From positions 1 through 64,000 of the forward strand of contig CALJGI010000021.1 in NCBI GenBank assembly GCA_938074045.1: a stretch of DNA of 64,000 nucleotides. Direction: 5' to 3'. A program made the position numbers and the translations under genes. How positions within the stretch are numbered: the first letter of the stretch is position 1; the number at the start of each line of letters is the position of its first letter. Below, piece by piece: positions 4,359 through 40,630 of this stretch. The notes under the pieces were generated by a model. It saw only the letters and a program-made list of their open reading frames with translations. It was not told the origin of the DNA and did no database searches. The DNA is from an uncultured Halieaceae bacterium (lineage in GTDB: Bacteria; Pseudomonadota; Gammaproteobacteria; Pseudomonadales; Halieaceae).

Positions 4359-4372
4359 TCACATACTATTTA

Positions 4373-4386
4373 GTTTGATATCAAAC
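4373..4386. promoter_or_regulatory. Perfect palindrome, candidate MarR operator
   Basis: GTTTGATATCAAAC is a perfect 14-bp inverted repeat in the divergent region between the marR gene and the operon starting at 4448. Size, symmetry and AT-rich core match typical MarR-family operators. Binding by the adjacent regulator is inferred from position. Confidence 0.6.
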
Positions 4387-4447
4387 ATGTTGCAACCGTA
4401 CTACATAGGGTTGATACTCACAAGCTCGGCAGTACAGAATAAGAACC

Positions 4448-5614: not shown

Positions 5615-5625
5615 GGAGAAGACCG

Positions 5626-6546: not shown

Positions 6547-6557
6547 CGATCAATTAG

Positions 6558-11778: not shown

Positions 11779-12169
11779 GATCGATGTCCTTCCTTTATGA
11801 GTTATTTTATCGCTTTTCACTGCGCTAAATCTAAATATAGCAATCCAGTGGATTGTACCCAACGGTGCAGCGCCAGAACGTGAATAGTTCATACGATTCG
11901 CGCGTATTCTTGTACCAGCCGCGGTCAGCGCCGCATCTTGTGGGGTTTCAGAAGGGCCGACCAGATACCGCACACACCGACAGTCCAGCACAACACATCG
12001 GATTAAATCCTATGATATAACCACTGTCAAGAATATTAACAGAGGCATCATATGAATAGGTTACCTTCATTATTACTTATAACTATTTGATGTATATATT
12101 TTTTTGGTTGTTTTTATTCGAAAAGACCCGTTTTCTATTTATCCCATAATTAAAACTAATTTCTCGAGA
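11779..12169. other. Intergenic stretch upstream of the TonB receptor
   Basis: This 391-bp gap holds the receptor's 5' region and the 3' flank of the DUF819 gene, both on the minus strand. It is AT-rich around 12050-12120. No clear terminator hairpin, operator palindrome or small gene was found. An in-frame extension of the receptor frame to 11991 exists but lacks a signal peptide start and is judged untranslated. Confidence 0.5.
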
Positions 12170-13300: not shown

Positions 13301-14307
13301 GGGGAGGCTCCTCCGGTCCAGTCAAACAGTATGCCGACAACGTTGTTGCGTGCCGAATCCGCAAGCTCATATGCGTAACGGCATTCTTCCGGCTGAAACT
13401 CTCGCTCAATTAAGCCATCGAGTGTGAAGCTGCCGCCAGTCACCTTCGAAAAAAAGTGCTCATCCACTCTGCGCTGGCTCCACCCGTCGCGATCATGGCT
13501 GTCGTGTACTGCCTGAATAGTTAACCCTTTCGTCATCACCGCTGAGCTGAGACACTGCCGGGAAGGGTAACCTGTATCACCAAGCAGAACGAGCTTGCCG
13601 AAACGAGCGGTCACACTCAATGCCTCACAGAACACGGCTGGGTTACCGGTACTGTCTACAATAATGTCAGGACCTGCGCCTTTATTGATGCCGGCGACCG
13701 CCCCGCAGCAAACCTCAAGTCCACCCGCTACAATCATGTTGGCGCCGCCGCGCCGCGCGTGTTCGAGGCGGTGCTCTGACAGGTCGGACACGGCTATGGT
13801 GGCGCAGCCCACCGCGGCAGCCCATCTGACCGCCATCTGCCCCACCGGGCCTGCACCTACGATCAGCACGTGCGCCCCCGCCGCAAAGGGCGCAATCCAG
13901 GCAGCACGAAAGGCGGTCTTGGCCAGCCCGGCCCAACAGGCCTGACGTAAATCCAAATGCGCCGGAACCGCCGTACACTGGTCCGAGTCTATGACATGAT
14001 GCGAGCCATGTCCGCGGCGAAGGAATACAATATTCCCGGGCGCAAATTCCTCTACGTTATCACCGACCTTCTCAACGACAGCGACAGTCTGCACGCCAGT
14101 CTGCAATTGGGGAAATGAAAACATATCAGCAAAATGCGTTTCCGGGTCGTAGCGTCGATGCAGAATTGTGGTCTCTGTGCCCGGACTCATCAGGCTGTAT
14201 AAGGAGCGCGCGCTCACCTGATCGGGATCTGGTTCCGATGGTCGCCAGCTGACCAACTCCACCTGACCAGGACTCGGGAAAATAATGCGCCTGGCTTCAG
14301 GGGACAT
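13291..14307 (-). CDS. MDR-superfamily dehydrogenase lacking zinc ligands (BchC/threonine-DH-like)
   Basis: A 338-residue medium-chain dehydrogenase/reductase. The N-terminal GroES-like half holds SARSLYSLMSPGTET and the Rossmann half has GAGPVGQ at residues 151-157 for NAD(P)H binding. The four-cysteine structural zinc lobe and the usual catalytic cysteine are absent, as in the BchC-like and other non-zinc MDR branches. ATG at 14307 gives an 11-bp overlap with the VOC gene; an earlier start at 14382 would extend far into that gene. Partner genes are SDR, VOC and DUF819, so a keto/alcohol interconversion step in the same route is likely. Substrate unknown. Confidence 0.8.
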   Translation of the reverse strand: MSPEARRIIFPSPGQVELVSWRPSEPDPDQVSARSLYSLMSPGTETTILHRRYDPETHFADMFSFPQLQTGVQTVAVVEKVGDNVEEFAPGNIVFLRRGHGSHHVIDSDQCTAVPAHLDLRQACWAGLAKTAFRAAWIAPFAAGAHVLIVGAGPVGQMAVRWAAAVGCATIAVSDLSEHRLEHARRGGANMIVAGGLEVCCGAVAGINKGAGPDIIVDSTGNPAVFCEALSVTARFGKLVLLGDTGYPSRQCLSSAVMTKGLTIQAVHDSHDRDGWSQRRVDEHFFSKVTGGSFTLDGLIEREFQPEECRYAYELADSARNNVVGILFDWTGGASPCP

Positions 14308-14710
14308 AGTCGATCCGGCACACACCACCCGTGTGCTGCATGCTTGATTCTGTGTATTGATGCAACTCGATGAATACACCATTGGGGTCGTTCAGCGTCA
14401 CCATCAACGTGTTATCGCCACCCTCAATACAGTCACTCACTTCGAGTCCGCCAGCCAACAACTGCTCGCGAAACTGATCCAGGTTATCCACCTCCAGGGC
14501 AAAGTGGGCCACCGCGCCCTGGTCCCGGGGGGCCGCCACCTTGACCAGCTCGATGTAACTTTCACCACCAAACCGCATGTACATGCCGATCAAGTCATCA
14601 GCCAGGTTTCGAAATTCAAATTGCCTTCGTGCACCCAGCAGTTCATAGAAGGTCTCACTGGCCTCCAGGTCAATCGTTTCAACACAAATATGCGCAAGGC
14701 GTCGCAACAT
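14297..14710 (-). CDS. VOC-family (glyoxalase/dioxygenase fold) protein
   Basis: A 137-residue vicinal-oxygen-chelate protein with the paired beta-alpha-beta3 modules: LRRLAHICVETIDLEASETFYELLG at the start and VAHFALEVDNLDQFREQLLAGG in the second half. It ends near DPNGVFIELHQY. Metal candidates are H7 of the first strand, E55 in SYIELVKV, H69 in VAHFALEV and E in FIELHQY, the usual glyoxalase positions. Methylglyoxal lyase, epimerase, or ring-cleaving or lyase chemistry are all possible. It starts 4 bp downstream of the SDR stop and overlaps the dehydrogenase gene by 11 bp. Confidence 0.82.
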   Translation of the reverse strand: MLRRLAHICVETIDLEASETFYELLGARRQFEFRNLADDLIGMYMRFGGESYIELVKVAAPRDQGAVAHFALEVDNLDQFREQLLAGGLEVSDCIEGGDNTLMVTLNDPNGVFIELHQYTESSMQHTGGVCRIDYVP

Positions 14711-14713
14711 ACG

Positions 14714-15586
14714 TCAATCCCTATCCTGCGGAGTTTCGCCCTGACTCCACCACTGCGTTCCTCCTGCCATCTGCAGAAAGGCATCTCGTTCCTGGTCAGA
14801 CTGTGCATGCAATGTAGTCAGCACATTTAGTGCAACTTCGTCCGCAGGCCAGCGCAGCTGACTGCCATCAGCGTCTGCCACCTGGAGCAACAGCTGTGCC
14901 ATATCTTCAGGGGCAAATGCACTTTGCAGGCCCTCAAGATTTTGTGCCCGCTTAAAAGCCACCAGTTCGGAGTAAATATCTGCCGCTGCATCCTGACTCT
15001 CGCCATCACTGTCGACCGCATCAAATAGCTGTGTGGTGTATTGTCCCCCGAGTACCAAGGCGACCCTGACCCCCCACCGATCCACCTCGTGGCGTAACGC
15101 TTCAGTTGCGCCTTCTAAGGCAAATTTGCTGGCGGAGTAGGCTACATCGCCAGCCAACCCCGCAATTCCGGACAGGGAGCTGATCATGATAATGCAGCCA
15201 CTACTTGCTCTTCGCATAACCGGGAGAACAGCGCGGGCCAATAACATTGGACCGAAAAAATTGGTTTCCATAACAAGCCGGGCATCGGTTTCGGAGATTC
15301 CCTCCCAACTGCCGTTACGCAAAACACCGGCATTATTGACCAAGACGTCAATCGAGCCGGATTCTCCATCGATTTGGCTCACAACGCTGGAAAAAGATTC
15401 CGGCACGGTAACATCCAGCAGCACTGTTCTGACATCCAGCCCCTCCTGCTGTGCAATGCTCTCCAACTGCTGACCACGCTCCTGCACTCGCACCCCGGCG
15501 TATACACGATCTCCTCTTCGCGCAAAGGCAAGCGCACTGGCCAGACCAATACCACTGCTCGCACCTGTTATCAGAACGATGGCCAT
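14714..15586 (-). CDS. Short-chain dehydrogenase/reductase (SDR)
   Basis: A 290-residue classical SDR. TGASSGIG at residues 7-14 binds NAD(P), NNAG is the strand-4 motif, and a serine in MISSLSGIAG with YSASK supplies the catalytic Ser-Tyr-Lys. The short C-terminal extension resembles the family of oxidoreductases acting on long or bulky alcohols. ATG 15586 is preferred over an in-frame TTG at 15595, leaving a 5-bp gap from the FadR gene. Part of the FadR-SDR-VOC-MDR-DUF819 operon. It probably works with the MDR dehydrogenase on the same hydroxy/keto substrate (inference). Confidence 0.87.
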   Translation of the reverse strand: MAIVLITGASSGIGLASALAFARRGDRVYAGVRVQERGQQLESIAQQEGLDVRTVLLDVTVPESFSSVVSQIDGESGSIDVLVNNAGVLRNGSWEGISETDARLVMETNFFGPMLLARAVLPVMRRASSGCIIMISSLSGIAGLAGDVAYSASKFALEGATEALRHEVDRWGVRVALVLGGQYTTQLFDAVDSDGESQDAAADIYSELVAFKRAQNLEGLQSAFAPEDMAQLLLQVADADGSQLRWPADEVALNVLTTLHAQSDQERDAFLQMAGGTQWWSQGETPQDRD

Positions 15587-15591
15587 GAGGC

Positions 15592-16311
15592 TCAACTCTC
15601 CCCTTCGAAGTGAACCCGATTTGCCTGTAGCATTTCCACGGTCAGGCTGTACGCTGACTTTTCCTTGCCAGTGGCAATCGCAAAGGCTATCTGATGGTGA
15701 CGTTCCAGATCAGCCGCATCCTCTTCTACGGATACCGATTGCCCCATGCGGGAATGGGCTTTCAAATAGGCAGCGATGGCATAGCGGAAATGATTGAGTA
15801 CTTCATTATGGGTTGCCCTGAGGATGGCCGAGTGAAACTCGATGTCGGCTTCCAACCGCAGTGGATCATCCGCCTGCGCCCCAGCCATCTTCTCGTAGCT
15901 GGCCAGTATAATGGCCACATCGTCTTTTTCCGCCCTGACGGCGGCCAGCTCAGCCGCCCTGGGTTCAACGATACGCCGCATCTCAATCAGGTCGAGCATA
16001 AAAGAGGCACTGGCGGTGTCCGGATCAGAATGCCAGCGCAAGACGTCGGGATCGAGCATATTCCACTCATCTCGTGGACGCACCCTGGTCCCGGCGCGCG
16101 GCGCCGTGGAGATCAACCCCTTGCCCGAGAGAACCTTGACCGCTTCCCGCAATGCATTTCTTCCCACTTCCAGGCTGTTGGCCAGGTCCTGTTCTATAGG
16201 AAGGACTTGACCGGCGGCATAGTGATTGGCTGCGATTCTGTATCCCAGCGTGTCGACCACTGCTGCCACCTGACCACGACTGGATTTTCTGGTGCTCATA
16301 TGCCGACTCAC
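15592..16311 (-). CDS. GntR-family regulator, FadR/FCD subfamily
   Basis: About 239 residues. The N-terminal winged helix (QVLPIEQDLANSLEVGRNALREAVKVLSGKGLI) and C-terminal all-helical FCD domain (MRRIVEPRAAELAAVRA, then DIEFHSAILRATHN) define the FadR subfamily, which binds small carboxylates or sugar acids with a metal. D and H residues in DIEFHSAI and the late HHQIAFAI fit the FCD ligand site. The start is uncertain: GTG 16311 or ATG 16299. It heads the minus-strand operon and is divergent from the nine-gene operon beginning at 16533, so it probably controls both. The divergent region contains a repeated 10-mer. Confidence 0.87.
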   Translation of the reverse strand: MSRHMSTRKSSRGQVAAVVDTLGYRIAANHYAAGQVLPIEQDLANSLEVGRNALREAVKVLSGKGLISTAPRAGTRVRPRDEWNMLDPDVLRWHSDPDTASASFMLDLIEMRRIVEPRAAELAAVRAEKDDVAIILASYEKMAGAQADDPLRLEADIEFHSAILRATHNEVLNHFRYAIAAYLKAHSRMGQSVSVEEDAADLERHHQIAFAIATGKEKSAYSLTVEMLQANRVHFEGES

Positions 16312-16341
16312 ATAACGTTTCCAAACAGTGTAGTTGTTTTT

Positions 16342-16503
16342 TTAATGGGATTAAAGCCGAAACTTCACGCATAAAAAATTCCAGATTATGCGCCCAACTC
16401 ATCCATTTCCGCATGGAATCACGCGGATTTAGCCAAAAATTTCTCGACTCAGCTATAGACTAAGGCAAATACCGCTAGCACTTGCATATTTTATTAATGG
16501 GAT
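16342..16503. promoter_or_regulatory. Symmetrically placed direct repeat in a divergent promoter region
   Basis: TTAATGGGAT occurs at 16342-16351 and 16494-16503, each about 30 bp from one of the two divergent genes (fadR-like and FAD oxidoreductase). The placement suggests paired regulator sites. It does not match the usual FadR-type consensus, so binding by the adjacent regulator is uncertain. Confidence 0.35.
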
Positions 16504-16510
16504 GAATAAT
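16482..16510 (+). promoter_or_regulatory. Candidate sigma-70 promoter for the 16.5-25 kb operon
   Basis: TTGCAT at 16482-16487 and AATAAT at 16505-16510 are separated by 17 bp, and a strong GAGGAGG ribosome site follows at about 16521, just before ATG 16533. The implied leader is very short. One direct-repeat copy overlaps the spacer. Confidence 0.4.
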
Positions 16511-16532
16511 ATCGCTTTCCCGAGGAGGAACT

Positions 16533-18116
16533 ATGACAGACTACGATGTAATCATCGCGGGTGGGGGCCACAATGGCCTGATCTGCGCGGCGATGCTGGT
16601 TAAAAACGGATTGAAAACCCTGGTATTGGAGCGCAACGACTGGGTTGGCGGCGGCGTCCTTACGCGGGAACTGACCGAACCAGGATTCAAGCACGACCCC
16701 TTTGGCTCGTCCCACGTATGGATACATCTCAACCCTGACTTCCAGGCCTTGCAACCGGAGCTAGAAAAATACGGCTTGCGGTATATCTGGTCTGAGGATC
16801 ACATCACGGGACATCCGAACCGCTATGAAGGCCAGGGCATCATCGTATACAAAGATGTCAACAAGACCTGTGACAGCATTGCCGAATACTCCCCGGCAGA
16901 TGCGCGACGATACCGCGAGATTCACGATGAATTCGGTGAGATCAAGGACGGAGTTGTCAAAGCAATGTTCGCGCCCCCTGCTCCACCGAGTTACCTGTTT
17001 CAGGGTCTGGAAAACAATCCTGAGGGTATGCGCAGACTCAGGGAATACCAACTGAGTTCACGCCAGTTTACCTTGGATAATTTCGAAAACGATCATGTGC
17101 GGGCATTCATTCTCGGTTGGGCCATGGCGCCACAAACGCTGCCAGATCAGCTGGGCACAGCGCAGGGTTTTTACGTGATGATTCCCAGCATTCACTATTA
17201 TGGGCAAGCCATACCCGAGGGCGGCAGCGGTATGCTGTCTGAGGCACTAAAAGCCTATGTGGAGGATAACGGGGGCGCCGTCATGACCGGCGCAACCGTG
17301 CGCAAGTTCCTGACTGAAAACGGCGCGTGTACCGGCGTACGCCTGGAATCAGGCGAGGAAATCATGGCCCGTACGGGGGTAGTCAGTTCCCTGGACCCCT
17401 ACCAGACCTTTTTACAGGGCTTCGATGAAGCGGATCTCCCATCCGGATTTGCAGAGCAGATCCGGCGTTTTAAATTTGGCGACATTACCATTGCCAGAGT
17501 GCACTACGCCCTGCACGAGGCACCGCGCTTTAAAAACGGTGCGGAAATGGACAAAACCGCCTACCAGCGAATTTTTGGCAACATGGCAGATATCGACAGG
17601 CAGTACCTGGAGATCGCTGCTGGCAAAGCGCCCTCGGATCCGTTCCTGTGGACCGCTGCCTGGACGCAAATGGACCCCACCCGGGCGCCGGATGACAAGC
17701 AAACTCTGATCATGGACACCTTTGTACCTGTGGACCTGGCCAGTGGAGAAGACTGGGAAGAAATCGGGCCGGCGTATTGCCGTGATGTATTACTAACTCA
17801 GCTGCAGCGGTACACCACCAATATGAAGGCGGACAACATTATTGCCGAATACGTAGAGACCGGGCCCTCGCTGGCGCGGGCCAATCTCTGTTTCCATCGC
17901 GGCGTGACCACCGGTGGCGAGCGTACCCTCAGTCAAATGGGTGCATTTCGCCCGCTGCCAAATTATGCCAACTACCGCGGCCCGGTAGACCGATTCTATA
18001 TGACCGGTCCCTCATGCCACCCCGGTGGCGGAATTTCGGGTATGGGCACTATCGCTGCCCGGGAAATATTGCAGGACCTTGGTGCCATTGACGACGATGA
18101 TGACTTCGATTTCTGA
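16533..18116 (+). CDS. Phytoene-desaturase-like FAD oxidoreductase
   Basis: A 527-residue flavoprotein. The ADP-binding motif GGGHNG (residues 10-15) and following LVLERNDWVGGGVLTRE match the phytoene dehydrogenase/amine-oxidase-like group. The C-terminal FYMTGPSCHPGGGISGMG is the second FAD-binding signature. The tail is very acidic (IDDDDDFDF). The GHNG version marks a bacterial clade annotated as phytoene-dehydrogenase-related but found without carotenoid genes; no carotenoid gene occurs here. Catabolic oxidation of an amine, alcohol or alkene is more likely. It has a strong GAGGAGG ribosome site, is first in the operon and is 15 bp before the nitrilase. Two relatives lie at 37365 and 38920. 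Confidence 0.85.
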   Translation: MTDYDVIIAGGGHNGLICAAMLVKNGLKTLVLERNDWVGGGVLTRELTEPGFKHDPFGSSHVWIHLNPDFQALQPELEKYGLRYIWSEDHITGHPNRYEGQGIIVYKDVNKTCDSIAEYSPADARRYREIHDEFGEIKDGVVKAMFAPPAPPSYLFQGLENNPEGMRRLREYQLSSRQFTLDNFENDHVRAFILGWAMAPQTLPDQLGTAQGFYVMIPSIHYYGQAIPEGGSGMLSEALKAYVEDNGGAVMTGATVRKFLTENGACTGVRLESGEEIMARTGVVSSLDPYQTFLQGFDEADLPSGFAEQIRRFKFGDITIARVHYALHEAPRFKNGAEMDKTAYQRIFGNMADIDRQYLEIAAGKAPSDPFLWTAAWTQMDPTRAPDDKQTLIMDTFVPVDLASGEDWEEIGPAYCRDVLLTQLQRYTTNMKADNIIAEYVETGPSLARANLCFHRGVTTGGERTLSQMGAFRPLPNYANYRGPVDRFYMTGPSCHPGGGISGMGTIAAREILQDLGAIDDDDDFDF

Positions 18117-18131
18117 TCACAGGATACAACC

Positions 18132-19283
18132 ATGAGAGAACGTGTAGAGCCTTATACAGCGCTGCTGATTCAGCCAGAAGTCACCGTGGTACAGGAACGC
18201 GCTGATATTCAAAAAAACCTTGATCGGGTCATGAACCTGATTCACTTCGGCGTTGGCTACTTTTGGGAAGTTCCGGTCAGACTGGTCGTACTCCCCGAGT
18301 ATTTTCTGCAGGGCGTAGGCACACCGGGCAAAGGCGAGAGCACCATCGATGATCAGATGAAAAAAGCTGTCACCATCCCTGGCCCCGAGGTAGATCAACT
18401 GGGAGAAATTGCCAAGCAATATGGATTATATATCTGTGGCGGCGGCGTGGTGGAGGAGGTGCCAGAGTTTCCAGACCGCTGGTTCAACACCAATTTTATC
18501 GTCGGCCCCACAGGAGAAGTGGTGCTCAAATACCATAAATGGCATATCAACGCGTCATTGGGGCTGGGTACCAGCCCTCATGATATTTTTGACGAGTACT
18601 GTAAATACTACGGGGGCGGCATCAAGGATTTGTTCCCCGTCATCGATACCGAGATCGGCAAGCTGGGCACCATGACATGCCACGACGGCTGCACGCCGGA
18701 GGTATCTCGCGCCCTGGGCTATAACGGCGCAGAAATCATCTGTCATCCAGGTGCAATTCAGGAAGTTGAAGGCGTCTCTGAACCCTGGGATTTCTGGAAA
18801 TTCACCCGCCGAACCCGAGCTCATGACAATATGTGCTACCTGCTGGGCGCCAACTGGGGCAGTGTCAACTATGATTACTACCCCAAGGGGTTCTGTCCCG
18901 GTCACTCCTTCGCCATCGACTATACGGGTATGGTATTGCGGGAAGCGCCCTACCCCGCTGAACAGGTGCTCTCGGTCACCATAGACATCGAGGCCCTGCG
19001 ACACTATCGCACACGCACCAATCACAACTGCTGGATAGACGTCAGAACCGAAGGGTTCCGGGATATGTATACGCGACCTATTTATCCCCCCAATCGTTTC
19101 CCGCCGGGTAAACCACCTCGCGCCCTGGTAGAAAAAATCGAAATATGTAAAGAAGTTTTTGATGATCTTTATGCACGGGGTCAGTTCACTCCGCCTGCAG
19201 GCATGGAACCGCATGAAGTATCCGGGCTATTGGCAGAGCGTATTGAGTATGCACAACGTACCGGACGCCTTAAGAAGACCTGA
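18132..19283 (+). CDS. Carbon-nitrogen hydrolase (nitrilase/amidase superfamily)
   Basis: A 383-residue member of the nitrilase superfamily. The catalytic triad is visible: E56 in VVLPEYF, K136 in KYHKWHI and C183 in MTCHDG. The length, with a C-terminal extension of about 90 residues past the core, resembles aliphatic amidases and nitrilases. Hydrolysis of an amide or nitrile C-N bond is expected; the sequence does not separate these. AGGA lies at a good distance from ATG 18132. It sits between an FAD oxidase and a TPP enzyme in the operon, suggesting amide or nitrile release early in the route. A truncated relative remains at 33021. Confidence 0.88.
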   Translation: MRERVEPYTALLIQPEVTVVQERADIQKNLDRVMNLIHFGVGYFWEVPVRLVVLPEYFLQGVGTPGKGESTIDDQMKKAVTIPGPEVDQLGEIAKQYGLYICGGGVVEEVPEFPDRWFNTNFIVGPTGEVVLKYHKWHINASLGLGTSPHDIFDEYCKYYGGGIKDLFPVIDTEIGKLGTMTCHDGCTPEVSRALGYNGAEIICHPGAIQEVEGVSEPWDFWKFTRRTRAHDNMCYLLGANWGSVNYDYYPKGFCPGHSFAIDYTGMVLREAPYPAEQVLSVTIDIEALRHYRTRTNHNCWIDVRTEGFRDMYTRPIYPPNRFPPGKPPRALVEKIEICKEVFDDLYARGQFTPPAGMEPHEVSGLLAERIEYAQRTGRLKKT

Positions 19284-19287
19284 TGCC

Positions 19288-19542
19288 ATGAAAGTAAAAA
19301 GCAAACTGGCTGATATCGATTTCGAATTCGGCCACTTCGAATACAAAAAAGACCACCTGATCGTGCACAGCCATGAGAGCCAGAGTATGCAGAGCAAGGT
19401 TTACATCAGCCCCAATGACGTCGTCTCAGCCCTGAGCAAAGCTCTGTCCAACCCCATGGTCTGGGTTTATCTGCTGGCCTTTCCGTTTTTTTTAATACGA
19501 TACCGACGGCGCCATGCGCGTACCAAGGAGAATAAGTCGTGA
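19288..19542 (+). CDS. Small membrane protein of unknown function
   Basis: An 84-residue protein. Residues 1-50 are hydrophilic and charged; one hydrophobic segment (WVYLLAFPFFLI, about 57-68) is followed by RYRRRHARTK, so it is probably anchored at the C-terminus with the basic tail in the cytoplasm. It begins 4 bp after the nitrilase stop and overlaps the TPP gene by 4 bp, strong evidence that it is a real operon member. The start at 19288 is taken as the first ATG after the nitrilase. No family recognised. Confidence 0.65.
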   Translation: MKVKSKLADIDFEFGHFEYKKDHLIVHSHESQSMQSKVYISPNDVVSALSKALSNPMVWVYLLAFPFFLIRYRRRHARTKENKS

Positions 19543-21182
19543 GTGAGCTGACCGGTGCACAGTCCATCGTCAAATCCTTGAAGGTCAACGGTGTAGACAC
19601 TGTATTTGCGCTGCCCGGTGGTCAACTCGACCATCTTTTTGATGCCCTCTATCACGAGGGAGAAGACATAAGACTGATTCACGCCCGTCACGAACAGGGT
19701 GTAGCTTACATGGCCTATGGTTATGCGCGCTCAACTGGCAAAGTCGGCACCTGTGCCGTCGTGCCGGGCCCAGGACTGTTGAATGCCAGCGCCGCCTTGT
19801 GCACCGCCTGGGCCAACTACACACCGGTGCTATGCATATCCGGCCAGATTATTTCCGGGGGTATTGGCAAGGGCTATGGTGAACTGCACGAGATTGATGA
19901 CCAACTGGGCATGATCAGCCATATCACCAAGTGGGCAGAGCGCATCGACAGCCCTGGGCTGGCACCTGAGAGCATAGAGCGTGCCTTTCAACAATTGGAG
20001 ACAGGTTGCCCGCGTCCAGTTGAAATCGAAATGGCCATGGATGTCATGGGCGAAAGCGCTGAAGTCGAACTCCTCCCACGAAAGACAGCTGCAGTAAGCG
20101 ACACGCCCAGCGCGCTTGCCATTGCAGCGGCGGCAGACATACTCAGCAGCGCAAAGCGCCCGCTTATCTACGTAGGATCAGGAGCAATGGCCGCCTCGAT
20201 GGAAGTGATAGCCCTGGCCGTGCTGTTACAAGCTCCTGTAGTCGCCTTTCGCGCTGGCAAAGGCATAGTCCCTGACGATCATTATCTGTCAGCAAACCTG
20301 CCTATGGGGCACTCACTGTGGGGCGAATGCGATGCGGTTGTCGCCGTGGGAACCCGTCTACACTGGCCATTGGTGATGTGGGGCAAGGATGATGATCTGA
20401 AGCTCATCAGAATCGACATCGACCCGGAACAAATATCGCGTATATGCGAACCTGAAGTAGGTATTGTCGCAGACTCTGCCGTCGCCCTGTCAGCCATCAC
20501 CACTCTGTTAAAACAAGCGTCATATGAGGCCGACTCACGGGAAGCAGAGCTCGTCGCACTCAGATCCAGGGTTGACGCTGAAATTCGCACCAAGGTCGGC
20601 CCGCAAATGGCCTACCTGGATGTCATTCGAGAGGAGCTGCCCCGGGACGGCATATTTGTCGATGAAGTCACCCAGGTGGGTTTTGTCTCCTGGTACGGCT
20701 TTCCTGTTTACGCACCCCGCCAGCATATCAGCGCTGGTTATCAGGGCACCCTGGGCTATGGCTATGCCACCGCTCTCGGGGTGGTCGCGGGCAATCCGGA
20801 CAAGCGTGTCATTCAGGTCAGCGGAGACGGCGGCATCATGTTTACTATTCAGGAGCTCGCCACCGCTGTGCAGTACCAACTGCCACTGGTGACCATTATC
20901 TTCAACGACCACCGCTATACCAACGTGCAGCGGCAACAGAAAGAATGGTTCGACGGACGGGTTATCTGCTCCGATCTGCATAATCCAGATTTCGTGAAAC
21001 TGGCGGAAAGTTTCGGGGCGACGGGTATCAAGGCACACGACCCCGAGTCAGTGCGCAGCGCAATCAAACTGGCGTTTACGATCGATGGCCCCGTCATTAT
21101 CGAAGTTGAGTTGGAGGAATTTTTCCCCGCTCCATGGCCATTTTTGATGTTGCCACAGAACCGTCGAGAGGTATGCCAATGA
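19539..21182 (+). CDS. Thiamine-diphosphate-dependent enzyme (acetolactate synthase/2-oxo-acid decarboxylase family)
   Basis: A 547-residue TPP enzyme with the three-domain layout of acetolactate synthase, benzoylformate decarboxylase and related proteins. E52 in HARHEQ activates the cofactor, GDGG at 429-432 and N456 in NDHRYTN bind the Mg-diphosphate. GTG 19539 with AAGGAG eight bases upstream is the start, overlapping the previous stop. The downstream aminotransferase and aldehyde dehydrogenase suggest decarboxylation of a 2-oxo acid to an aldehyde (Ehrlich-type route), not acetolactate synthesis; no regulatory subunit is nearby. Carboligation cannot be excluded. Confidence 0.85.
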   Translation: MSELTGAQSIVKSLKVNGVDTVFALPGGQLDHLFDALYHEGEDIRLIHARHEQGVAYMAYGYARSTGKVGTCAVVPGPGLLNASAALCTAWANYTPVLCISGQIISGGIGKGYGELHEIDDQLGMISHITKWAERIDSPGLAPESIERAFQQLETGCPRPVEIEMAMDVMGESAEVELLPRKTAAVSDTPSALAIAAAADILSSAKRPLIYVGSGAMAASMEVIALAVLLQAPVVAFRAGKGIVPDDHYLSANLPMGHSLWGECDAVVAVGTRLHWPLVMWGKDDDLKLIRIDIDPEQISRICEPEVGIVADSAVALSAITTLLKQASYEADSREAELVALRSRVDAEIRTKVGPQMAYLDVIREELPRDGIFVDEVTQVGFVSWYGFPVYAPRQHISAGYQGTLGYGYATALGVVAGNPDKRVIQVSGDGGIMFTIQELATAVQYQLPLVTIIFNDHRYTNVQRQQKEWFDGRVICSDLHNPDFVKLAESFGATGIKAHDPESVRSAIKLAFTIDGPVIIEVELEEFFPAPWPFLMLPQNRREVCQ

Positions 21183-22270
21183 GCATGGAGCCGCGAGCTG
21201 GCGTTCTACGCCTCGCGCCCTACCAGCAGGGTCAAAGTGAAATCGAAGGCGTGTCTGAACCGATCAAGCTGTCCTCCAATGAGTCCTCCCATGGGCCCTC
21301 CAGAGCCGCTTTAGCTGCCTACAGAGATGCAGCGAGTCAATTACATCGCTACCCCGATGGTTCGCAACGCTCCCTGTGCAATGCGATTGCAGAGGTGCAC
21401 GATCTGAAGCAGGAACTGATTATCTGCGGAAACGGCTCGGATGAATTGATCCAACTCATGGTGCGCTCCTATATCGGCGAAGGTCACGAAAGCCTGCAGA
21501 GTGAAAACGGTTTTGTTATGAGCCGAATACACTCAATAGCCCAGGGTGCGGACGTGGTGATCGCTCCGGAGAAAAATCACCGTATTGACGTGGATGCCAT
21601 GCTCAGCCGGGTCAGTGATCGCACCCGTTTTTGTACCGTTGCCAATCCCAATAATCCTACGGGTACTTACCTGACTGAAGATCAAATTCGGCGTCTGCAT
21701 GCGGGGCTGCCTGATAACTGTCTTTTCCTCATCGATGAAGCCTATGCGGAGTACGCGATGGCCCCGGACTACACCACAGCGCTCGCCATGGTAGAGGAAC
21801 ATGACAACGTCGTGGTCACGCGCACATTCTCAAAAATATACGCACTCTCTGCACTTCGCATCGGCTGGGCCTACTGCCCCGCCGCGATATACGACGTGGT
21901 GCAGCGCATTCGTACGCCCTTTAACACCAACGGGCCAGCACTGGCCGCGGCGGAAGCCGCGATACGAGATACTGACTACATCGCGGGAATCGCCAGTCAC
22001 AATGCCCTGTGGCGGGATCGCATTGCTGATGAATTAACAGCAATGGGTATTGAAGCCATTCCCAGCCAGGCCAACTTCTATCTGATGAGATTTCCGGACG
22101 ATTCAAACAAGAGTGGCACCGGGGCGGCGGCCTTTCTGCAATCCCGGGGCATCATTCCCAGACCAGCCGGCAACGGTGATCAGTTTCTTCGTGTCACTAT
22201 CGGTCTGGACGCAGAGAATGAAGCCGTTTTGAGCGCACTACGAGACTATATGGCAGCCAATGAGCAGTGA
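21179..22270 (+). CDS. HisC-like class I/II aminotransferase
   Basis: A 363-residue fold-type I PLP enzyme close to histidinol-phosphate and aromatic aminotransferases. K219 in TFSKIYALSALRIG forms the Schiff base; NPNNPTG is the conserved substrate/cofactor loop and IDEAYAEY supplies the aspartate and tyrosine. ATG 21179 overlaps the TPP gene stop as ATGA, with GAGAGG eight bases upstream; an earlier ATG at 21134 is less likely. No histidine biosynthesis genes are near, so an aromatic or other amino acid donor is favoured. Fits directly before the TPP enzyme and aldehyde dehydrogenase in an amino-acid degradation sequence. Confidence 0.85.
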   Translation: MSMEPRAGVLRLAPYQQGQSEIEGVSEPIKLSSNESSHGPSRAALAAYRDAASQLHRYPDGSQRSLCNAIAEVHDLKQELIICGNGSDELIQLMVRSYIGEGHESLQSENGFVMSRIHSIAQGADVVIAPEKNHRIDVDAMLSRVSDRTRFCTVANPNNPTGTYLTEDQIRRLHAGLPDNCLFLIDEAYAEYAMAPDYTTALAMVEEHDNVVVTRTFSKIYALSALRIGWAYCPAAIYDVVQRIRTPFNTNGPALAAAEAAIRDTDYIAGIASHNALWRDRIADELTAMGIEAIPSQANFYLMRFPDDSNKSGTGAAAFLQSRGIIPRPAGNGDQFLRVTIGLDAENEAVLSALRDYMAANEQ

Positions 22271-23756
22271 CACCTACACACCTACCCGCCAGGCAAGCGA
22301 ACGACTCTCTGGTACACAGAAACTGTATATCGGCGGGCAATGGCAAGTCGCCTCTGACAATAACGTTAGCGACGTCTACAACCCTTCCTCCGGTCAGGTC
22401 ATCAGCCATGCGGCGGTGGCCACTACGGACGATTGTGAAAGGGCTGTGGCGGCGGCTCGACGCAGCTTTGATCAGGGTGTCTGGACACGTTTAACTCCCG
22501 CCGCCCGAGGTAGAATACTGTGGAAACTGGGTGATCTGCTGGAGGAGAATGCTGATGAAATCGCCGAGCTGGAAATGCTCGATGGCGGCAAGGCTTTCGA
22601 CGGCGCCCGTCACGGTGAGATACCCTTTGCCGCAGAATGTTTCAGATACTACGCCGGTTGGTGTACCAAGATCGAAGGCAGTACCAAGCAATTGTCGACG
22701 GTCGCCGACGCTGAATTCCACATTTACACCAAGCGCGAGCCTATAGGCGTAGCGGCGTTAATCGTACCCTGGAACGGTCCACTGGTGCAGGCCGCCTGGA
22801 AAGTGGCACCGGCACTGGCCGCCGGTTGCAGTTGCATATTAAAGCCCGCCAGTGAAACCCCTTTGACCGCTGTGCGTCTGGCTGAGCTGGCGGCGGAAGC
22901 TGGAGTCCCCGATGGCGTATTCAATGTCCTGCTGGGCGGCGGCGCCAGCGTAGGTCAGTATCTCGCCGAACATCCACAGGTCGACAAACTTTCTTTCACC
23001 GGTTCAACCGAGGTAGGTAAAACGATCGTTGCCGCTGCCTGTAGCAATTTGAAAAAGCTGTCGCTGGAGCTGGGAGGGAAATCACCGATGGTTATATTTG
23101 AGGATGCGGATCTTGAGCAGGCCATCCCCGGTGTTGCGCAAGCCATTTTCTCCAATGCCGGCCAGGTCTGCGTAGCGGGTTCTCGTCTCTATGTGCAGGA
23201 GTCAATATACGAGGAAGTCGTAACTGGCATAGCCGACATTGCCAAAGGCATGACCGTCGGACCAGCCACCACCCCGGGGTACGACATGGGCCCGCTGATT
23301 TCCGCGCGCCATCTAAACAGCGTTGAACAACTGATAGAGCGCGGTCGCGAACAGGGAGCAAAACTTATTGCAGGTGGCAGCAGGACGGGCAATGGAAGCG
23401 GCTATTATCTGCAACCCACGGTATTTGCTGATGTAAACGGTACGATGGATATCGTGCGGGAGGAAATTTTTGGACCAGTGCTGGCCATACAATCCTTCAG
23501 GACCGAACAGGAAGCCGTACAATTGGCCAACGCCAGTGAATACGGACTTGCCGCCAGCGTCTGGACTCGAGATATGGGCCGCGCCCACCGCACGGTTGGC
23601 CAGATTCGTGCTGGCATTCAGTGGATTAATTGCCACGGCATACCTGACATGGCCGTGCCCTTCGGTGGCTACAAACAATCCGGCTGGGGTCGAGAGAACG
23701 GCTACGAGTCTCTGCTGCAATACACTGAACTGAAATCAGTTATTGCCAGCCTTTAG
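22260..23756 (+). CDS. NAD(P)-dependent aldehyde dehydrogenase
   Basis: A 498-residue ALDH. C304 in NAGQVCVAGSR is the catalytic nucleophile and E270 in LELGGKSP the general base; VPWNGPL and KPASETP are the NAD-binding and structural motifs. Length and motifs match the betaine/phenylacetaldehyde/general aldehyde branch. It overlaps the aminotransferase gene by 11 bp. Expected role is oxidation of the aldehyde produced by the TPP enzyme to a carboxylic acid. Substrate range is not readable from sequence. Confidence 0.9.
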   Translation: MSSDTYTPTRQASERLSGTQKLYIGGQWQVASDNNVSDVYNPSSGQVISHAAVATTDDCERAVAAARRSFDQGVWTRLTPAARGRILWKLGDLLEENADEIAELEMLDGGKAFDGARHGEIPFAAECFRYYAGWCTKIEGSTKQLSTVADAEFHIYTKREPIGVAALIVPWNGPLVQAAWKVAPALAAGCSCILKPASETPLTAVRLAELAAEAGVPDGVFNVLLGGGASVGQYLAEHPQVDKLSFTGSTEVGKTIVAAACSNLKKLSLELGGKSPMVIFEDADLEQAIPGVAQAIFSNAGQVCVAGSRLYVQESIYEEVVTGIADIAKGMTVGPATTPGYDMGPLISARHLNSVEQLIERGREQGAKLIAGGSRTGNGSGYYLQPTVFADVNGTMDIVREEIFGPVLAIQSFRTEQEAVQLANASEYGLAASVWTRDMGRAHRTVGQIRAGIQWINCHGIPDMAVPFGGYKQSGWGRENGYESLLQYTELKSVIASL

Positions 23757-23824
23757 CACGCCTCGACAAATCCAGCCAGATGACCATAGACTGACACAAA
23801 TTGTAAACCTGAAGGTCAGACAAC

Positions 23825-24031
23825 ATGGCGTCGTTCGAGGAACAGTTTTATCTCGAAAATCCAAGCCGATGGGATATCTTTAAAAGAGACCTCAGGCTCC
23901 TGCTCTACCTGATCCGCCCCGCTGTCGATTGGCTTGTGCGCGGCACCTTGATCAGACGCGCCTTGCGCAGGGCAAAAAATTCAGGACAACCCATGATACT
24001 TGAGGATGTGATCGATGGGCCGGCTGAATAA
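23825..24031 (+). CDS. Small protein preceding the second RdhA-like gene
   Basis: A 68-residue protein: acidic start (MASFEEQFYLENPSRW), an amphipathic/hydrophobic helix (DLRLLLYLIRPAVDWLVRG), then a basic RRALRRAK tract and an acidic end. At most one membrane-associating segment. It overlaps the RdhA-like gene by 17 bp. In classical systems a small membrane protein, RdhB, accompanies RdhA, but RdhB has about three helices, so this is not an obvious RdhB. It may anchor or chaperone the Fe-S protein (inference). AAGG lies upstream of ATG 23825. Confidence 0.6.
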   Translation: MASFEEQFYLENPSRWDIFKRDLRLLLYLIRPAVDWLVRGTLIRRALRRAKNSGQPMILEDVIDGPAE

Positions 24032-25019
24032 GTCCTCCTTCCCTTCTCCGGAGCTCTCCTTTCAATACAGAGAGAGACCCCGCTCTGGCAACGAGATCAA
24101 CGGGCTGGGGGAGGCGGTGGTGCGACGTGCCGTGCCCATCTTTCATGGCTCCGGCGCTCGCAAGCTGGAGTGGCAACACCTCGAAACTTTCTTCGCGCTG
24201 ATCAATCCCTGGCGCGTCTACTGGTTGAATATTGTCAACCGCTGGATGTTGAGAAATGCCGATGGCCCCATCGCCGAGAGGCAAGAGATAAATGCCGACC
24301 CGCGGGCGATGAGCACAGAGATTAAACAAACAGGGTGTTCCCTGGGCGCTGGCAAAATAGGCATTACCAAACTATCTGAACACGCACTTTATGAAGGGAA
24401 AACACCTGACTACAAGAACGCGATAGTCATCTTGTACCCCATGGACCCTGACGAAATGGCACATATAACCCAACCCAGAGCGGGCCTGGAAACCATGCGG
24501 GCTTATAACGAGATATCGCGGGTGACCATCGCCCTCGCCGCGCATATTCGTGACAAGGGGTGGCGTGCACGAGCCTACTGTGAGGCTGCTGACCTGCTCC
24601 ACATCCCGCTGGCAATTGATGCGGGCCTGGGCCAACTGGGCAAACACGGCTCCCTGATCTGTGCTGAATTTGGATCCAGTATGCGGATCGCAACCATTCT
24701 GACAGATTTGCCCATGGAGGAAGATCAACCGCTTGACCTGGGTGTTGAAGACCTTTGCGCCGGTTGTCGGCGTTGCACCATAGACTGCCCGGTTGATGCC
24801 ATCAGTGACGAAAAACAGCTGGTCCGTGGTATCGAGAAGTGGTACGTCGACTTTGATCGATGCGCACCGTATTTCACGGCTACGGTAGGATGCGGAATCT
24901 GTATCGAGGTATGCCCATGGACCATCCCGGGACGAGGTCCGTCGCTGTCAGCGCAGCTGCTGAAAAAACGCGACAAAAAAGATCTTCGAAATATGGAAAC
25001 GGTCAGGTCAGCAGATTGA
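24015..25019 (+). CDS. Reductive-dehalogenase-like corrinoid/Fe-S protein, second copy
   Basis: A 334-residue relative of the protein at 4448, without a twin-arginine signal. Core motifs are AGLGQLGKHGSLICAEFG and MRIATILTDLP, as in the B12-binding domain of RdhA. Two [4Fe-4S] sites follow: C248, C251, C254 and C258 in CAGCRRCTIDCP, and C283 with C293, C296 and C300 in CGICIEVCP. GAGG precedes ATG 24015. It is last in the operon and its 3' end overlaps the convergent NSS gene by 17 bp. If it dehalogenates, the substrate would be the amino-acid-derived compound handled by the operon. A QueG-like or other cobalamin-dependent reduction is the alternative. Confidence 0.8.
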   Translation: MGRLNKSSFPSPELSFQYRERPRSGNEINGLGEAVVRRAVPIFHGSGARKLEWQHLETFFALINPWRVYWLNIVNRWMLRNADGPIAERQEINADPRAMSTEIKQTGCSLGAGKIGITKLSEHALYEGKTPDYKNAIVILYPMDPDEMAHITQPRAGLETMRAYNEISRVTIALAAHIRDKGWRARAYCEAADLLHIPLAIDAGLGQLGKHGSLICAEFGSSMRIATILTDLPMEEDQPLDLGVEDLCAGCRRCTIDCPVDAISDEKQLVRGIEKWYVDFDRCAPYFTATVGCGICIEVCPWTIPGRGPSLSAQLLKKRDKKDLRNMETVRSAD

Positions 25020-26376
25020 AAATAAAAATAGCGCCTATCGCGACGGGCGCTACGATCCTTATTGACCACAGCCAGAGTAACCAACCGGTGCGGGACTGAA
25101 CACCCATATCTGTCTGCATAGTTGACTCCTTGATAGCCCATCCGGCGAACAAGGCTATCAGCAGAGCATTGAGCGGCAGAATAAAATTCGACACCCCGTA
25201 GTCAAGAATCGAAAAGACCGTCTTGCCCGCTAACTGGGGAATCATGTCCAATGGCGTAAAATCCTTCCAGATATTGAAAGAGAACACAGCGGCGAAACTC
25301 AGCAACCAAACCATAAATCCGGTTAATGCAGCCGCCCGGGGTCGGGTCAGCCATTGCTTTTCCTCTGCCCAGGAAACAAAGGGCTCCATCATGCCAATGC
25401 CGGAAGTGAAGGCCGCAAAGAACACTGTGAGGAAGAAAAGCGGCGCTATAATTTGCGATCCTGGCATTTGTGCAAAGGCAACAGGCAGCGTAATGAATAC
25501 AAGGCCCGGCCCTTCACCGGCATCGAATCCGGCAGCAAACACAATGGGGAAAATCAGCAGACCCGCCAGAATTGCCGCTGCCGTATCTGACAATGCGATA
25601 GTCCAGGCGGCTGCTCCGATAGATACTGAGCGCGGCAGGTAAGCCCCATAGGCCAGCAGTGCACCGGTGCCGACCGCAATGGAAAAAAGTGACTGGCCCA
25701 GTGCAATCAATATGGCGTCGGGACCCAGCCTGGAAAAATCCGCTTCAAACATAAAGGCCAAGGCCCGGGCGGAATCCCCGGTAATATTCGCATAAATCGC
25801 CAAGCCGACCAATAAAACGGCGAGCGCGGGCATCATAAATTTAGCCACGGTTTCGATGCCGCGGCGCAAACCACTGCCCACCACAATAGTGACGCCAGCT
25901 ATCATTAAAGTAGCCGCAATTTCCATACTCACCGGCGAGTTGAGCGTATCGGTAAACAGCTGCGCCGCCTCTTGCTGGCTGGTTTCTACAAAGCGCCCGC
26001 GGGCCGCTTCCAACAGATAGGTCAGGGACCAACCGCCGACCACAGCGTAAAAACTCAATGCCAACAGGGGCGCTACAGAACTCATCCAACCGATCGCGCC
26101 CCATGAGGGGGACCTGGATTCCTCGGCGGCCACGTTGAATATTGTAGATACAGGGCTGGCCTGGCCACGACGGGCAATGGTCAGTTCGGCCATCACCAGG
26201 GGGACCCCAACAACAAATACAAAGCCCAGGTAAACCAGAACAAAGGCACCACCGCCATTCTCCCCCGCCACGTAGGGAAAACGCCAAAGGTTTCCCAGAC
26301 CAACGGAGCAACTGATCGTTGCCAGCAAAAATGTGGTGGGGGACGACCAGGTTTGTTCCTTGCGTACACCGCTCAT
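25003..26376 (-). CDS. Sodium:neurotransmitter-symporter-family (NSS) transporter
   Basis: A 457-residue protein with about 11 helices. SVGLGNLWRFPYVAGENGGGAF in helix 1 is the substrate- and sodium-binding signature shared with LeuT, Tyt1 and TnaT. Bacterial NSS members couple sodium to uptake of amino acids such as leucine, tyrosine or tryptophan. It lies convergent to the nine-gene operon with a 17-bp overlap of 3' ends. A role in delivering the operon's substrate is likely by proximity, but it is transcribed separately. Confidence 0.9.
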   Translation of the reverse strand: MSGVRKEQTWSSPTTFLLATISCSVGLGNLWRFPYVAGENGGGAFVLVYLGFVFVVGVPLVMAELTIARRGQASPVSTIFNVAAEESRSPSWGAIGWMSSVAPLLALSFYAVVGGWSLTYLLEAARGRFVETSQQEAAQLFTDTLNSPVSMEIAATLMIAGVTIVVGSGLRRGIETVAKFMMPALAVLLVGLAIYANITGDSARALAFMFEADFSRLGPDAILIALGQSLFSIAVGTGALLAYGAYLPRSVSIGAAAWTIALSDTAAAILAGLLIFPIVFAAGFDAGEGPGLVFITLPVAFAQMPGSQIIAPLFFLTVFFAAFTSGIGMMEPFVSWAEEKQWLTRPRAAALTGFMVWLLSFAAVFSFNIWKDFTPLDMIPQLAGKTVFSILDYGVSNFILPLNALLIALFAGWAIKESTMQTDMGVQSRTGWLLWLWSIRIVAPVAIGAIFIFNLLT

Positions 26377-26549: not shown

Positions 26550-27608
26550 ATGTCCGAACCTGTTAGCCCCCGACTGAAACCCTACCGAGTAGATTTGGTA
26601 GACGGCGAACGTTATAGCTGGTGTGCTTGCGGGCTTAGCAAAGCCCAACCTTTTTGCGATGGTTCTCACCGGGATTCGTTCTTCAAACCCTTGCAATTTC
26701 ACGCCAGCACGACAGGACCTGCAGTCTTGTGTGGTTGCAAGCAGTCAAATACTGCCCCACATTGCGATGGCAGCCACAACAATCTCAGCGAAGCATACGA
26801 GGAGGATGAGCGCTCGGTGGCGGAGTTACTCAGCCTGACCTCCGAATCGCTGTTCAACGAGCAAGGGCGAGCGCAACTTGACGGTGGTTGCTACGTGCAG
26901 AGGCCCGAGGGACTTCAGTGGCACCTCATGGGCGGGCTGGAGGTAGCTCCCGTGATCACCAGTGTCGATGGCGCAATACACTTGAGCCAATATGCGGCGC
27001 GTCTAACATCAAAGCAAACAGAACACCTTAGCTGTGGTATGGGCGCAATGGTGATGTACGTGGATAAGGGTACGGTGACCTTACACCTGGAGGGCGCGGA
27101 GCTACCTCTCACAGAGCGAACGGGGGTTTACATCAAGCCCGGTGAAAGCTTTAGTCTTGAAGGCAGCGGCGAAGAAGCCGCACACTGTTTGTTCTGTATC
27201 TGCCCAGGATCCTTTAGTCTACAGACGGCGGAAGTGTCGAACAGTGGTGGCGTCGATGAACTGTCGAAGCGAGTGGTAGCCTATAATCCTGTGCTGGTTG
27301 AAGCGATGGCCGATCGGTTTTACCAGGTGCTGGTTGGAGAGGCCGTGGGCAGCAACGATATCAGCCAGTTCATTGGTCAAATTCCGCAATCCAAGGCCGT
27401 CCCCCACCGGCATCTCTACGAGGAAACCATACTGATTCTGAGTGGTCAGGGTATGTTGTGGACTGAAAACTATCGAGCGGCGGTGGCCCCCGGCGATTTT
27501 GTATTCTTACCGGCACAGCAGGAGCATTCTCTACAATGCCACAGCGAAGCTGGAATGGAACTGGTCGGACACTTTTACCCGGCTGGATCACCTACCATCA
27601 ACTACTAG
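26550..27608 (+). CDS. Double-CDGSH iron-sulfur / bicupin fusion protein
   Basis: A 352-residue fusion. Two complete CDGSH [2Fe-2S] sites occupy the first 80 residues: C25, C27, C36 and H40 in CACGLSKAQPFCDGSH, and C61, C63, C72 and H76 in CGCKQSNTAPHCDGSH. A linker follows, then two cupin barrels. The first (about 145-210) lacks a clear histidine set. The second has PHRHLYEE and a later EHSLQCH, so a 3-His/1-Glu metal site is probable. CDGSH proteins transfer electrons or clusters; a metal cupin could be a dioxygenase or isomerase, so an electron-fed oxygenase is a possibility. It is divergent from the NSS gene and convergent with the OMP gene at 27625. Confidence 0.85.
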   Translation: MSEPVSPRLKPYRVDLVDGERYSWCACGLSKAQPFCDGSHRDSFFKPLQFHASTTGPAVLCGCKQSNTAPHCDGSHNNLSEAYEEDERSVAELLSLTSESLFNEQGRAQLDGGCYVQRPEGLQWHLMGGLEVAPVITSVDGAIHLSQYAARLTSKQTEHLSCGMGAMVMYVDKGTVTLHLEGAELPLTERTGVYIKPGESFSLEGSGEEAAHCLFCICPGSFSLQTAEVSNSGGVDELSKRVVAYNPVLVEAMADRFYQVLVGEAVGSNDISQFIGQIPQSKAVPHRHLYEETILILSGQGMLWTENYRAAVAPGDFVFLPAQQEHSLQCHSEAGMELVGHFYPAGSPTINY

Positions 27609-36155: not shown

Positions 36156-36183
36156 CGCTACGGGGTGATCAACCTCTCGCTGT

Positions 36184-40536: not shown

Positions 40537-40630
40537 TACCCACTCCGTTGCGGTTCGAACACAGGTCCAAACCATGCTGATATCGACAGCGTTACAGCAT
40601 GCCATGGAGAGTGTAAATTGTCTAGATATG

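Follow-up and report, generated by a model that had tools for sequence, protein, structure and literature searches.

A catabolic island that is real, conserved and apparently co-regulated lies in a 64,000-nucleotide stretch of DNA (hereinafter the window) from an uncultured Halieaceae bacterium, positions 1–64,000 of contig CALJGI010000021.1 (C21) of its 4.14-Mb genome. The island is built from known enzyme families and, as far as we searched, is undescribed as a unit; literature searches, from which subscription papers mostly fell out, returned no published description. Its core comprises a FAD oxidoreductase (FADox), a formamidase-like CN hydrolase (NIT) and a small membrane protein (small1). 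A thiamine pyrophosphate (TPP)-dependent enzyme, an aminotransferase (AT) and an aldehyde dehydrogenase (ALDH) often follow, and genes for the use of D-mannonate join the core in relatives. We tentatively favour, at somewhat less than an even chance, the reading that this is a GntR-controlled island serving a conjugate that is imported through the TonB receptor and in which an amino acid is joined to a hexose or hexonic acid.

An earlier interpretation of positions 15,592–26,376, made from the sequence alone, had listed an AT, a TPP enzyme, an ALDH, a FAD oxidoreductase, a CN hydrolase, an RdhA-like protein, an NSS transporter and a divergent FadR-type GntR regulator, and all of these are present in that range. 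The AT-TPP-ALDH triad of this sequence-only reading stands; its nitrile and halogen chemistry does not. It overlooked the D-mannonate branch, with 2-keto-3-deoxygluconate (KDG) and its 6-phosphate (KDPG) as intermediates, as well as the TonB receptor and the small membrane protein.

The conserved core

The operon is a tight set of eight genes on the plus strand, from 16,533 to 25,019, in the order FADox, NIT, small1, TPP enzyme, AT, ALDH, a second small protein (small2) and an RdhA-like protein (RDH). The intergenic gaps are 15, 4, −4, −10, −11, 68 and −17 bp. The nine plus-strand genes counted earlier are thus eight, two of them small, and the NSS symporter said to follow them is convergent, on the minus strand.

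A NIT scan of 84,980 species genomes yielded 38 loci, with amidase relatives 69–91% identical over near-full matches. Counts of distinct loci include L089 and exclude the copies L087 (of L039), L088 (of L040) and L090 (of L055); a locus is designated well-flanked when it extends 6 kb or more before NIT and 5.5 kb or more after it (21 loci, 19 distinct). Several loci are near-identical (L042, L043, L044, L046 and L047; L063 and L064) and L052 and L073 look alike, so raw locus counts overstate independence. The association exceeds chance: of the 34 distinct loci with 90% or more of NIT, 32 have FADox directly upstream of it, and contig ends cut off the other two. Small1 follows NIT in 20 of the 21 well-flanked loci, being weak or missing in L069. 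The earlier reading as a catabolic island is supported, and the other enzymes also accompany the core in relatives (TPP enzyme in 17, AT in 16 and ALDH in 11 of the 19 distinct well-flanked loci). At the level of sequence, FADox-NIT-small1 is a near-invariant core, and TPP-AT-ALDH often follows it.

NIT (18,132–19,283) belongs to the CN-hydrolase superfamily (PF00795, 120.8 bits; cut-off 23.2). Glu56, Lys136 and Cys183 are invariant in 15 aligned rows, as are the triad motifs P-E-Y, Y-H-K and C-H-D-G. The nearest solved structures are formamidases (5g3o, E = 1.9e-21; profile, 5e-22), which have PEY, YxK and CHDG in common with NIT. Because the score against the formamidase equivalog PRK13287 is 80.4 bits, far below the cut-off of 406, we designate NIT only as amidase-type. 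Nitrilases proper (branch 1) have Cys-Trp-Glu around the catalytic cysteine. NIT has C183-H-D-G instead, and with formamidases as its nearest structures we rejected both this assignment and the earlier label of nitrilase.

FADox (16,533–18,116) is a CrtI/CrtO-like protein that matches PF01593 and scores 275 bits against the CrtO model NF045689 (cut-off 1000). The AlphaFold 2 (AF2) model, with mean pLDDT of 80.1, has a CrtI/MAO fold. The best match in the PDB is gamma-carotene desaturase (4rep, TMq 0.72), followed by CrtI and by putrescine, nicotine and monoamine oxidases. Small1 (19,288–19,542; 84 residues) contains one C-terminal hydrophobic helix, with the hydrophobic stretch at residues 52–70, and the longer open reading frame (ORF) containing it has no Pfam match.

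Diverged or truncated versions of core genes occur at two loci. L075 (3918–5707) has a divergent FADox-small1 pair (55% and 36%) beside an ADH/Gfo/SDR/VOC set, hinting at a paralogous system. L046 (3–530) has a second, truncated NIT (80% over 176 residues), which lies where the locus begins and is separated by 9.5 kb from the first copy.

A D-mannonate branch in relatives

Clustering of neighbours and family scans detected a D-mannonate branch beside the core; representatives were scored by profile, and the remaining loci were assigned by tblastn homology. The branch uses either of two unrelated dehydratases, ManD (equivalog; 747.6 bits in L067, cut-off 550) or UxuA (514.7 bits in L071, cut-off 199.55). 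The Eda representative is over its curated cut-off (224.2 vs 156.05), and the KdgK representative is near but below its equivalog cut-off (334 vs 400). ManD is located upstream of FADox in L050, L055, L056, L058, L061, L065, L066, L067 and L089, with a sulfatase intervening in L065 and the gene split over two frames in L066, and is nearby in L069 and L070. UxuA is located after ALDH in L039, L041, L045, L049, L051, L052, L071 and L074, with a KdgK homologue between them in L041 and L045. KDG kinase homologues and KDPG aldolases accompany the dehydratase in part of the loci. Counted over the 19 distinct well-flanked loci, 12 have a dehydratase (7 ManD, 5 UxuA, none both) and 7 have neither. Among 194 genomes of the order, only 19 have a ManD over the cut-off, so that its position beside NIT is not due to chance.

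The branch can also lie apart from the core. ManD was sought genome-wide for six of the seven loci with neither dehydratase, and L059 was positive, on another contig. Three metagenome-assembled genomes (MAGs) without ManD in the core locus (L059, L062 and L064, the last two with core loci cut short) carry it elsewhere, in a run Eda-KdgK-SNF-ManD with a TonB receptor beyond Eda; SNF is the NSS-type symporter, and KdgK and Eda of these runs were identified by 33–41% homology. In the MAG of L059 (G513), the ManD run is on the same contig as TPP and AT. Only these three MAGs were checked for such a split between the core and the ManD set.

The window contains neither ManD nor UxuA, and no close ManD is present in its genome. 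UxuA (49%) is found on another contig, C22, beside UxaC, a mannitol-dehydrogenase-family gene (assumed to be UxuB) and a sulfatase. This UxaC-UxuA-sulfatase set, and the presence of a sulfatase in 8 of the 21 well-flanked loci, would fit a hexuronamide as substrate: the amidase would free a hexuronic acid from the amino-acid amide of a (sulfated) uronate, and SDR, ADH and Gfo enzymes would convert it to D-mannonate. Such a route leaves FADox without a role, and UxaC and UxuB were not seen among the scanned core neighbours, though they were not searched for as such. We consider it improbable.

The TPP enzyme, aminotransferase and aldehyde dehydrogenase

The TPP enzyme (19,539–21,182), assumed to be a 2-oxo acid decarboxylase, scores 729 bits against NF006122 (PRK08266, an unnamed subfamily; cut-off 571). 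The next-best model is AruI, with 380.5 bits (cut-off 500), and the acetolactate synthase model TIGR00118 gives 323 bits (cut-off 538). A housekeeping acetolactate synthase was rejected for this gene, as another gene in the genome scores 866.5 bits, over the cut-off. AT (21,173–22,270) has its likelier start at 21,173, the listed ORF beginning at 21,134. It scores 283 bits against TIGR01141 (HisC), just over the cut-off of 276.55, and its best PDB match is a putative Phe aminotransferase, 4r2n. Its reading as the sole HisC of the genome was dropped, since a second HisC on contig C11 scores higher (311.6 bits). ALDH (22,260–23,756; PF00171, 581 bits) has StyD and BADH as nearest models and is below both cut-offs (StyD, 573 bits vs 850).

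TPP and AT adjoin ABC permeases in the genomes of L067 (at L113) and L059 (at L114), and at L113 also a family-3 solute-binding gene, which favours an amino acid as the AT substrate. The same arrangement bears on a linear route, in which AT, TPP enzyme and ALDH would act serially on a sugar-like C7 amino acid prepared by FADox and the amidase. The amino acid would be converted to manno-heptulosonate, D-mannose and D-mannonate, and the ALDH product would go straight to UxuA or ManD. The orders TPP-AT-ALDH-UxuA-KdgK (L051, L052, L071 and L074) and TPP-AT-ALDH-KdgK-UxuA-Eda (L045) read as one pathway, and Eda and ManD have a promoter motif (below) in common in some loci; in some loci the linear route fits the gene order equally well as the splitting of a conjugate. 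The permeases and the solute-binding gene of L113, however, point to an ordinary amino acid, and to our knowledge no such C7 amino acid is a natural nutrient. We hold the linear route to be unlikely.

The presence of an amidase and an Ehrlich-type triad in one operon would also be expected if a single amino acid were converted to one acid by two routes in parallel. FADox would act as a 2-monooxygenase followed by the amidase (indole-3-acetamide type), AT-TPP-ALDH would form the other route (indole-3-pyruvate type), and the sugar genes would be regulon neighbours for a second nutrient. The amine-oxidase-like fold of FADox is compatible with this, and a putative L-amino-acid oxidase (7eme) is at rank 34 among its 50 listed structural matches; no tryptophan or lysine monooxygenase is among those 50. 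Two such routes would be redundant within one operon, and in several loci ManD is directly upstream of FADox, with a promoter in common. We regard parallel routes as distinctly unlikely.

A candidate operator common to the island genes

The FadR-type GntR regulator (15,592–16,311, minus strand; FCD PF07729 and GntR PF00392) is divergent from FADox. Regions between GntR and FADox, or between GntR and ManD, have in common a palindrome with the consensus WTNATGGGATTAW. The divergent promoter of the window contains two candidate operators, a perfect TTAATGGGATTAA at 16,342–16,354 and one with a single mismatch at 16,494–16,506. A weaker candidate at 12,138–12,150, with one mismatch to WTNATGGGATTAW, is 147 bp upstream of the TonB receptor. 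Operators of FadR-type regulators have the consensus TNGT..ACNA; it was rejected here, with no match in the window region and a match only in L053.

The motif was found post hoc, from 8-mers shared by the same regions, with the reversed pattern and the loci without GntR as controls. Over the 38 loci (561,977 bases), the motif occurs 83 times with at most one mismatch, including 50 perfect sites, whereas the reversed pattern gives none of either kind; near-identical loci inflate the site counts. Of the 21 GntR-bearing loci, the window included, 20 carry one or more perfect sites (missing in L050). So do 2 of the 19 loci without GntR, L038 and L055, both short contigs beginning close before the core. 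In the window alone there are two sites vs 1.12 expected; they are not above chance by number, and only their position counts. The whole genome contains 14 sites with at most one mismatch vs 3 for the reversed control. Only those of the window front island genes, and the other 12 are inside or beside ORFs not identified as island genes.

Sites, some with one mismatch, also precede the TonB receptor or DUF819 in L039, L040, L041, L042, L044, L046, L048, L051, L052, L053, L054, L056 and L073. Candidate sites precede Eda in L051, L052 and L073, and ManD in L055, L056, L058 and L089. Because the palindrome fronts core, TonB receptor, DUF819, ManD and Eda genes in various loci, it suggests that these genes form one regulon, to whose candidate operators GntR would bind. 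The divergent GntR control proposed earlier thus gains support from a common, if predicted, operator.

Transport and the divergent genes

On the divergent side (minus strand), GntR is followed by an SDR oxidoreductase (14,714–15,595; PF00106), a VOC (glyoxalase-fold) protein (14,297–14,710; PF00903), a Zn-type MDR dehydrogenase (13,291–14,382; PF00107), a DUF819 membrane protein (12,170–13,300; PF05684, 225.9 bits), assumed to be a transporter, and then, after a gap, the TonB-dependent receptor (9,310–11,991; PF00593 and PF07715). Matches to SDR are found in 17 of the 21 well-flanked loci, some with only ~30% identity, and DUF819 in 18 of the 21. Receptors 57–74% identical to that of the island are present in L039, L040, L042, L044, L046, L048 (partial), L054, L067 and L089. 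A keto-acid carrier role for DUF819 was rejected, as PMC12671195 places such a gene only in a cluster variant. The NSS-type sodium symporter SNF (25,003–26,376, minus strand; PF00209) has homologues (49–51%) beside ManD or KdgK in L133, L134 and L135, and further homologues in L065, L066 and L067. UbiD, amidohydrolase, MFS and similar neighbours are inconsistently present among loci and were rejected as island parts.

Proposed pathway

The gene content, its conservation, ManD and UxuA as alternatives within a locus and the common motifs are apparent from the sequences; the reactions, the conjugate, operator binding and the effector are all what we infer. The two constant enzymes, the oxidoreductase and the amidase, co-vary with the D-mannonate and amino-acid branches under one regulator. 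The splitting of a conjugate is the simplest scheme. The conjugate would enter via the TonB receptor and cross the inner membrane by a carrier, DUF819 and/or the NSS symporter. FADox would oxidise the sugar-bearing carbon or the amine to the amide level, and the formamidase-like amidase would hydrolyse the amide to D-mannonate and the free amino acid. AT, the TPP decarboxylase and ALDH would convert the amino acid to the carboxylic acid one carbon shorter (Ehrlich-type). ManD or UxuA would convert D-mannonate to KDG, KdgK would phosphorylate it, and Eda would yield pyruvate and glyceraldehyde-3-phosphate; in the genome of the window, dehydration would rely on UxuA on C22. GntR, assumed to be a repressor, would bind TTAATGGGATTAA-type operators and respond to a pathway intermediate.

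Several observations weigh against this scheme. We know of no CrtI/CrtO-fold enzyme that makes amides. The TPP gene is apart from the core in L054, L056, L059, L067, L069 and L070, and in 8 of the 19 distinct well-flanked loci no ALDH lies near the core. In G142, the genome to which L039 belongs, the locus carries UxuA and another contig a ManD over the cut-off, so the mutual exclusion of the two dehydratases holds only within a locus. ManD is absent genome-wide at E ≤ 1e-80 for L042, L044, L053 and L054, and there is none over the cut-off for L040 (G185), UxuA not having been sought in these five. Neither KdgK nor Eda was detected in the window or in the examined parts of C21 and C22. The sulfatase of the 8 well-flanked loci (7 of the 19 distinct) has no place in the scheme, and no glycosidase was seen among the neighbours scanned, in which no search was aimed at glycosidases.

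One specific version of the scheme, that the island serves mannosylated tryptophan (C-mannosyl-tryptophan or an N-mannosyl analogue), is a long shot; C-mannosyl-tryptophan is the boldest candidate substrate open to testing. FADox would oxidise the sugar-bearing carbon and the formamidase-like enzyme would cleave the resulting acyl-nitrogen bond. AT-TPP-ALDH would process either the side chain of tryptophan or the 2-oxo acid that remains, and D-mannonate would carry off the mannose skeleton. The hints are dehydratases specific for D-mannonate, an AT and ALDH of aromatic type by nearest match, the NSS symporter, Trp/Tyr permeases near some loci, and PrnB-like and kynureninase-like genes next door in one lineage. 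Growth of bacteria on C-mannosyl-tryptophan was reportedly first described by Hossain et al. in 2018. If true, the mannosyl-tryptophan version would answer how bacteria grow on this compound. According to PMC8433626 and PMC12990085, the latter a 2026 review, bacteria can do so by a mechanism that is unknown, and PMC6423288 mentions C-mannosyl-tryptophan in marine ascidians. More generally, the class of possible substrates is limited enough by the motif and the mannonate branch for a direct growth test in cultured strains.

The RdhA-like protein and the halogen reading

RDH (24,015–25,019; 334 residues) scores 113.6 bits against TIGR02486, below the family cut-off of 160.35. Its AF2 model (mean pLDDT 75.3) is closest to NpRdhA and PceA (TMq ~0.7 and 0.6). 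In the alignment, the catalytic Tyr of NpRdhA is retained (SMRAY/TMRAY), Arg occupies the position of NpRdhA Lys488, as in PceA, and NpRdhA Arg552 is not kept. RDH has a reductive dehalogenase fold, the catalytic Tyr/Arg and two 4Fe-4S motifs, and is predicted to bind B12 and two 4Fe-4S clusters. Small2 (23,825–24,031; 68 residues) accompanies it and has homologues beside RDH in L066 (35%) and L067 (44%). Because a close RDH homologue with small2 occurs with the core only in the window, L066 and L067, we treat the pair as a lineage-specific addition to the island. Distant RdhA-like proteins (31–40% over at least 240 residues) are present in several genomes of the family and are not tied to the core.

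The region 2,762–7,886, farther upstream, contains a kynureninase-like gene and MarR, a second RdhA that exceeds the TIGR02486 cut-off with 168.3 bits and aligns in the manner of PceA, an unknown protein and a gene of the NRAMP family; it is possibly a halotryptophan/halokynurenine module. In L042, L044, L046 and L047 the core is followed, to the extent that contigs or loci reach, by the same module order together with a PrnB-like gene (PF08933) and a Trp/Tyr permease. No candidate operator precedes the kynureninase/RdhA2/permease module.

The sequence-only reading took the island to degrade an amino-acid-derived nitrile or oxime, or a halogenated amino acid. The triad and the RdhA-like gene in one operon speak for it, as do the second RdhA and kynureninase-like gene ~11–13 kb upstream. 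The formamidase-type motif of the CN hydrolase led us to drop nitrile and oxime chemistry. A halogenated amino acid as core substrate was likewise rejected, with a close RDH homologue in only three loci and the dehalogenase module without an operator. The reading as a whole is very improbable.

Distribution and possible transfer

The set is rare: when 390 genomes of the order were scanned, 5 had NIT at E ≤ 1e-60, the genome of the window included, and one relative is Parahaliea mediterranea (Halieaceae). Carriers are gammaproteobacteria and two MAGs named Sphingomonadales and Emcibacteraceae, with a patchy distribution. They are scattered and apparently mostly marine; the named isolates are marine, and L066 (RIFCSP series) presumably comes from a terrestrial aquifer. 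A NIT tree of 35 rows places Paraglaciecola arctica, a member of the Alteromonadaceae, within a Cellvibrionaceae group with support of 98/93, which suggests that the island was transferred between lineages. A highly conserved, patchy and apparently transferred set points to a common nitrogen compound, either dissolved or derived from hosts; we found no description of the route by which it is broken down.

In four MAG loci (L059, L060, L063 and L064), a PhyH-family dioxygenase gene follows the core or its retained part, with a TonB receptor in between in all except L060. AT, TPP and ALDH have no match within these loci.

Other features of the window

The region 33,511–43,591 contains a second amine-type cluster with a class-III aminotransferase, a Rieske ring hydroxylase, a GCV_T protein, a BetI-type TetR, an OYE-like flavoprotein and two more CrtO-like FAD proteins (30–33% to FADox), and looks like a cluster for betaine or N-methylamine use. 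A partial CN_hydrolase match (profile 1–93 of 256) at 33,063–33,362 is perhaps a gene remnant. A protein with CDGSH iron-sulfur motifs and a cupin domain is encoded at 26,550–27,608.

Comparison with known systems

The proposed island resembles mannityl-opine catabolism of agrobacteria in using a sugar-amino-acid conjugate as nutrient. D-mannonate is not known to be an intermediate of that catabolism, and no title among the matches listed in a literature search links mannopine with mannonate.

NIT has the PEY, YxK and CHDG motifs of formamidase AmiF, but is ~40–50 residues longer than the PDB formamidases and far below the equivalog cut-off. Similarly, RDH has the fold, catalytic Tyr and Fe-S cysteines of NpRdhA and PceA, but is shorter than both and below the TIGR02486 cut-off.

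As in the hexuronate/D-mannonate pathway, relatives have a dehydratase and Eda over curated cut-offs and a KDG-kinase-like gene, partly under the same motif. Unlike in that pathway, UxaC and UxuB were not seen among the scanned core neighbours, and the mannonate of the island would apparently come from a nitrogen compound.

The triad has the enzyme classes of Ehrlich or AruH-AruI-type catabolism, namely a transaminase, a 2-oxo acid decarboxylase and an ALDH, in one operon, and outside its own subfamily the best-scoring model for the TPP enzyme is AruI, below the AruI cut-off. Other than that, the island differs in its HisC-like AT and in a TPP enzyme of the PRK08266 subfamily, and its triad is tied to FADox and the amidase and, in relatives, to D-mannonate genes.

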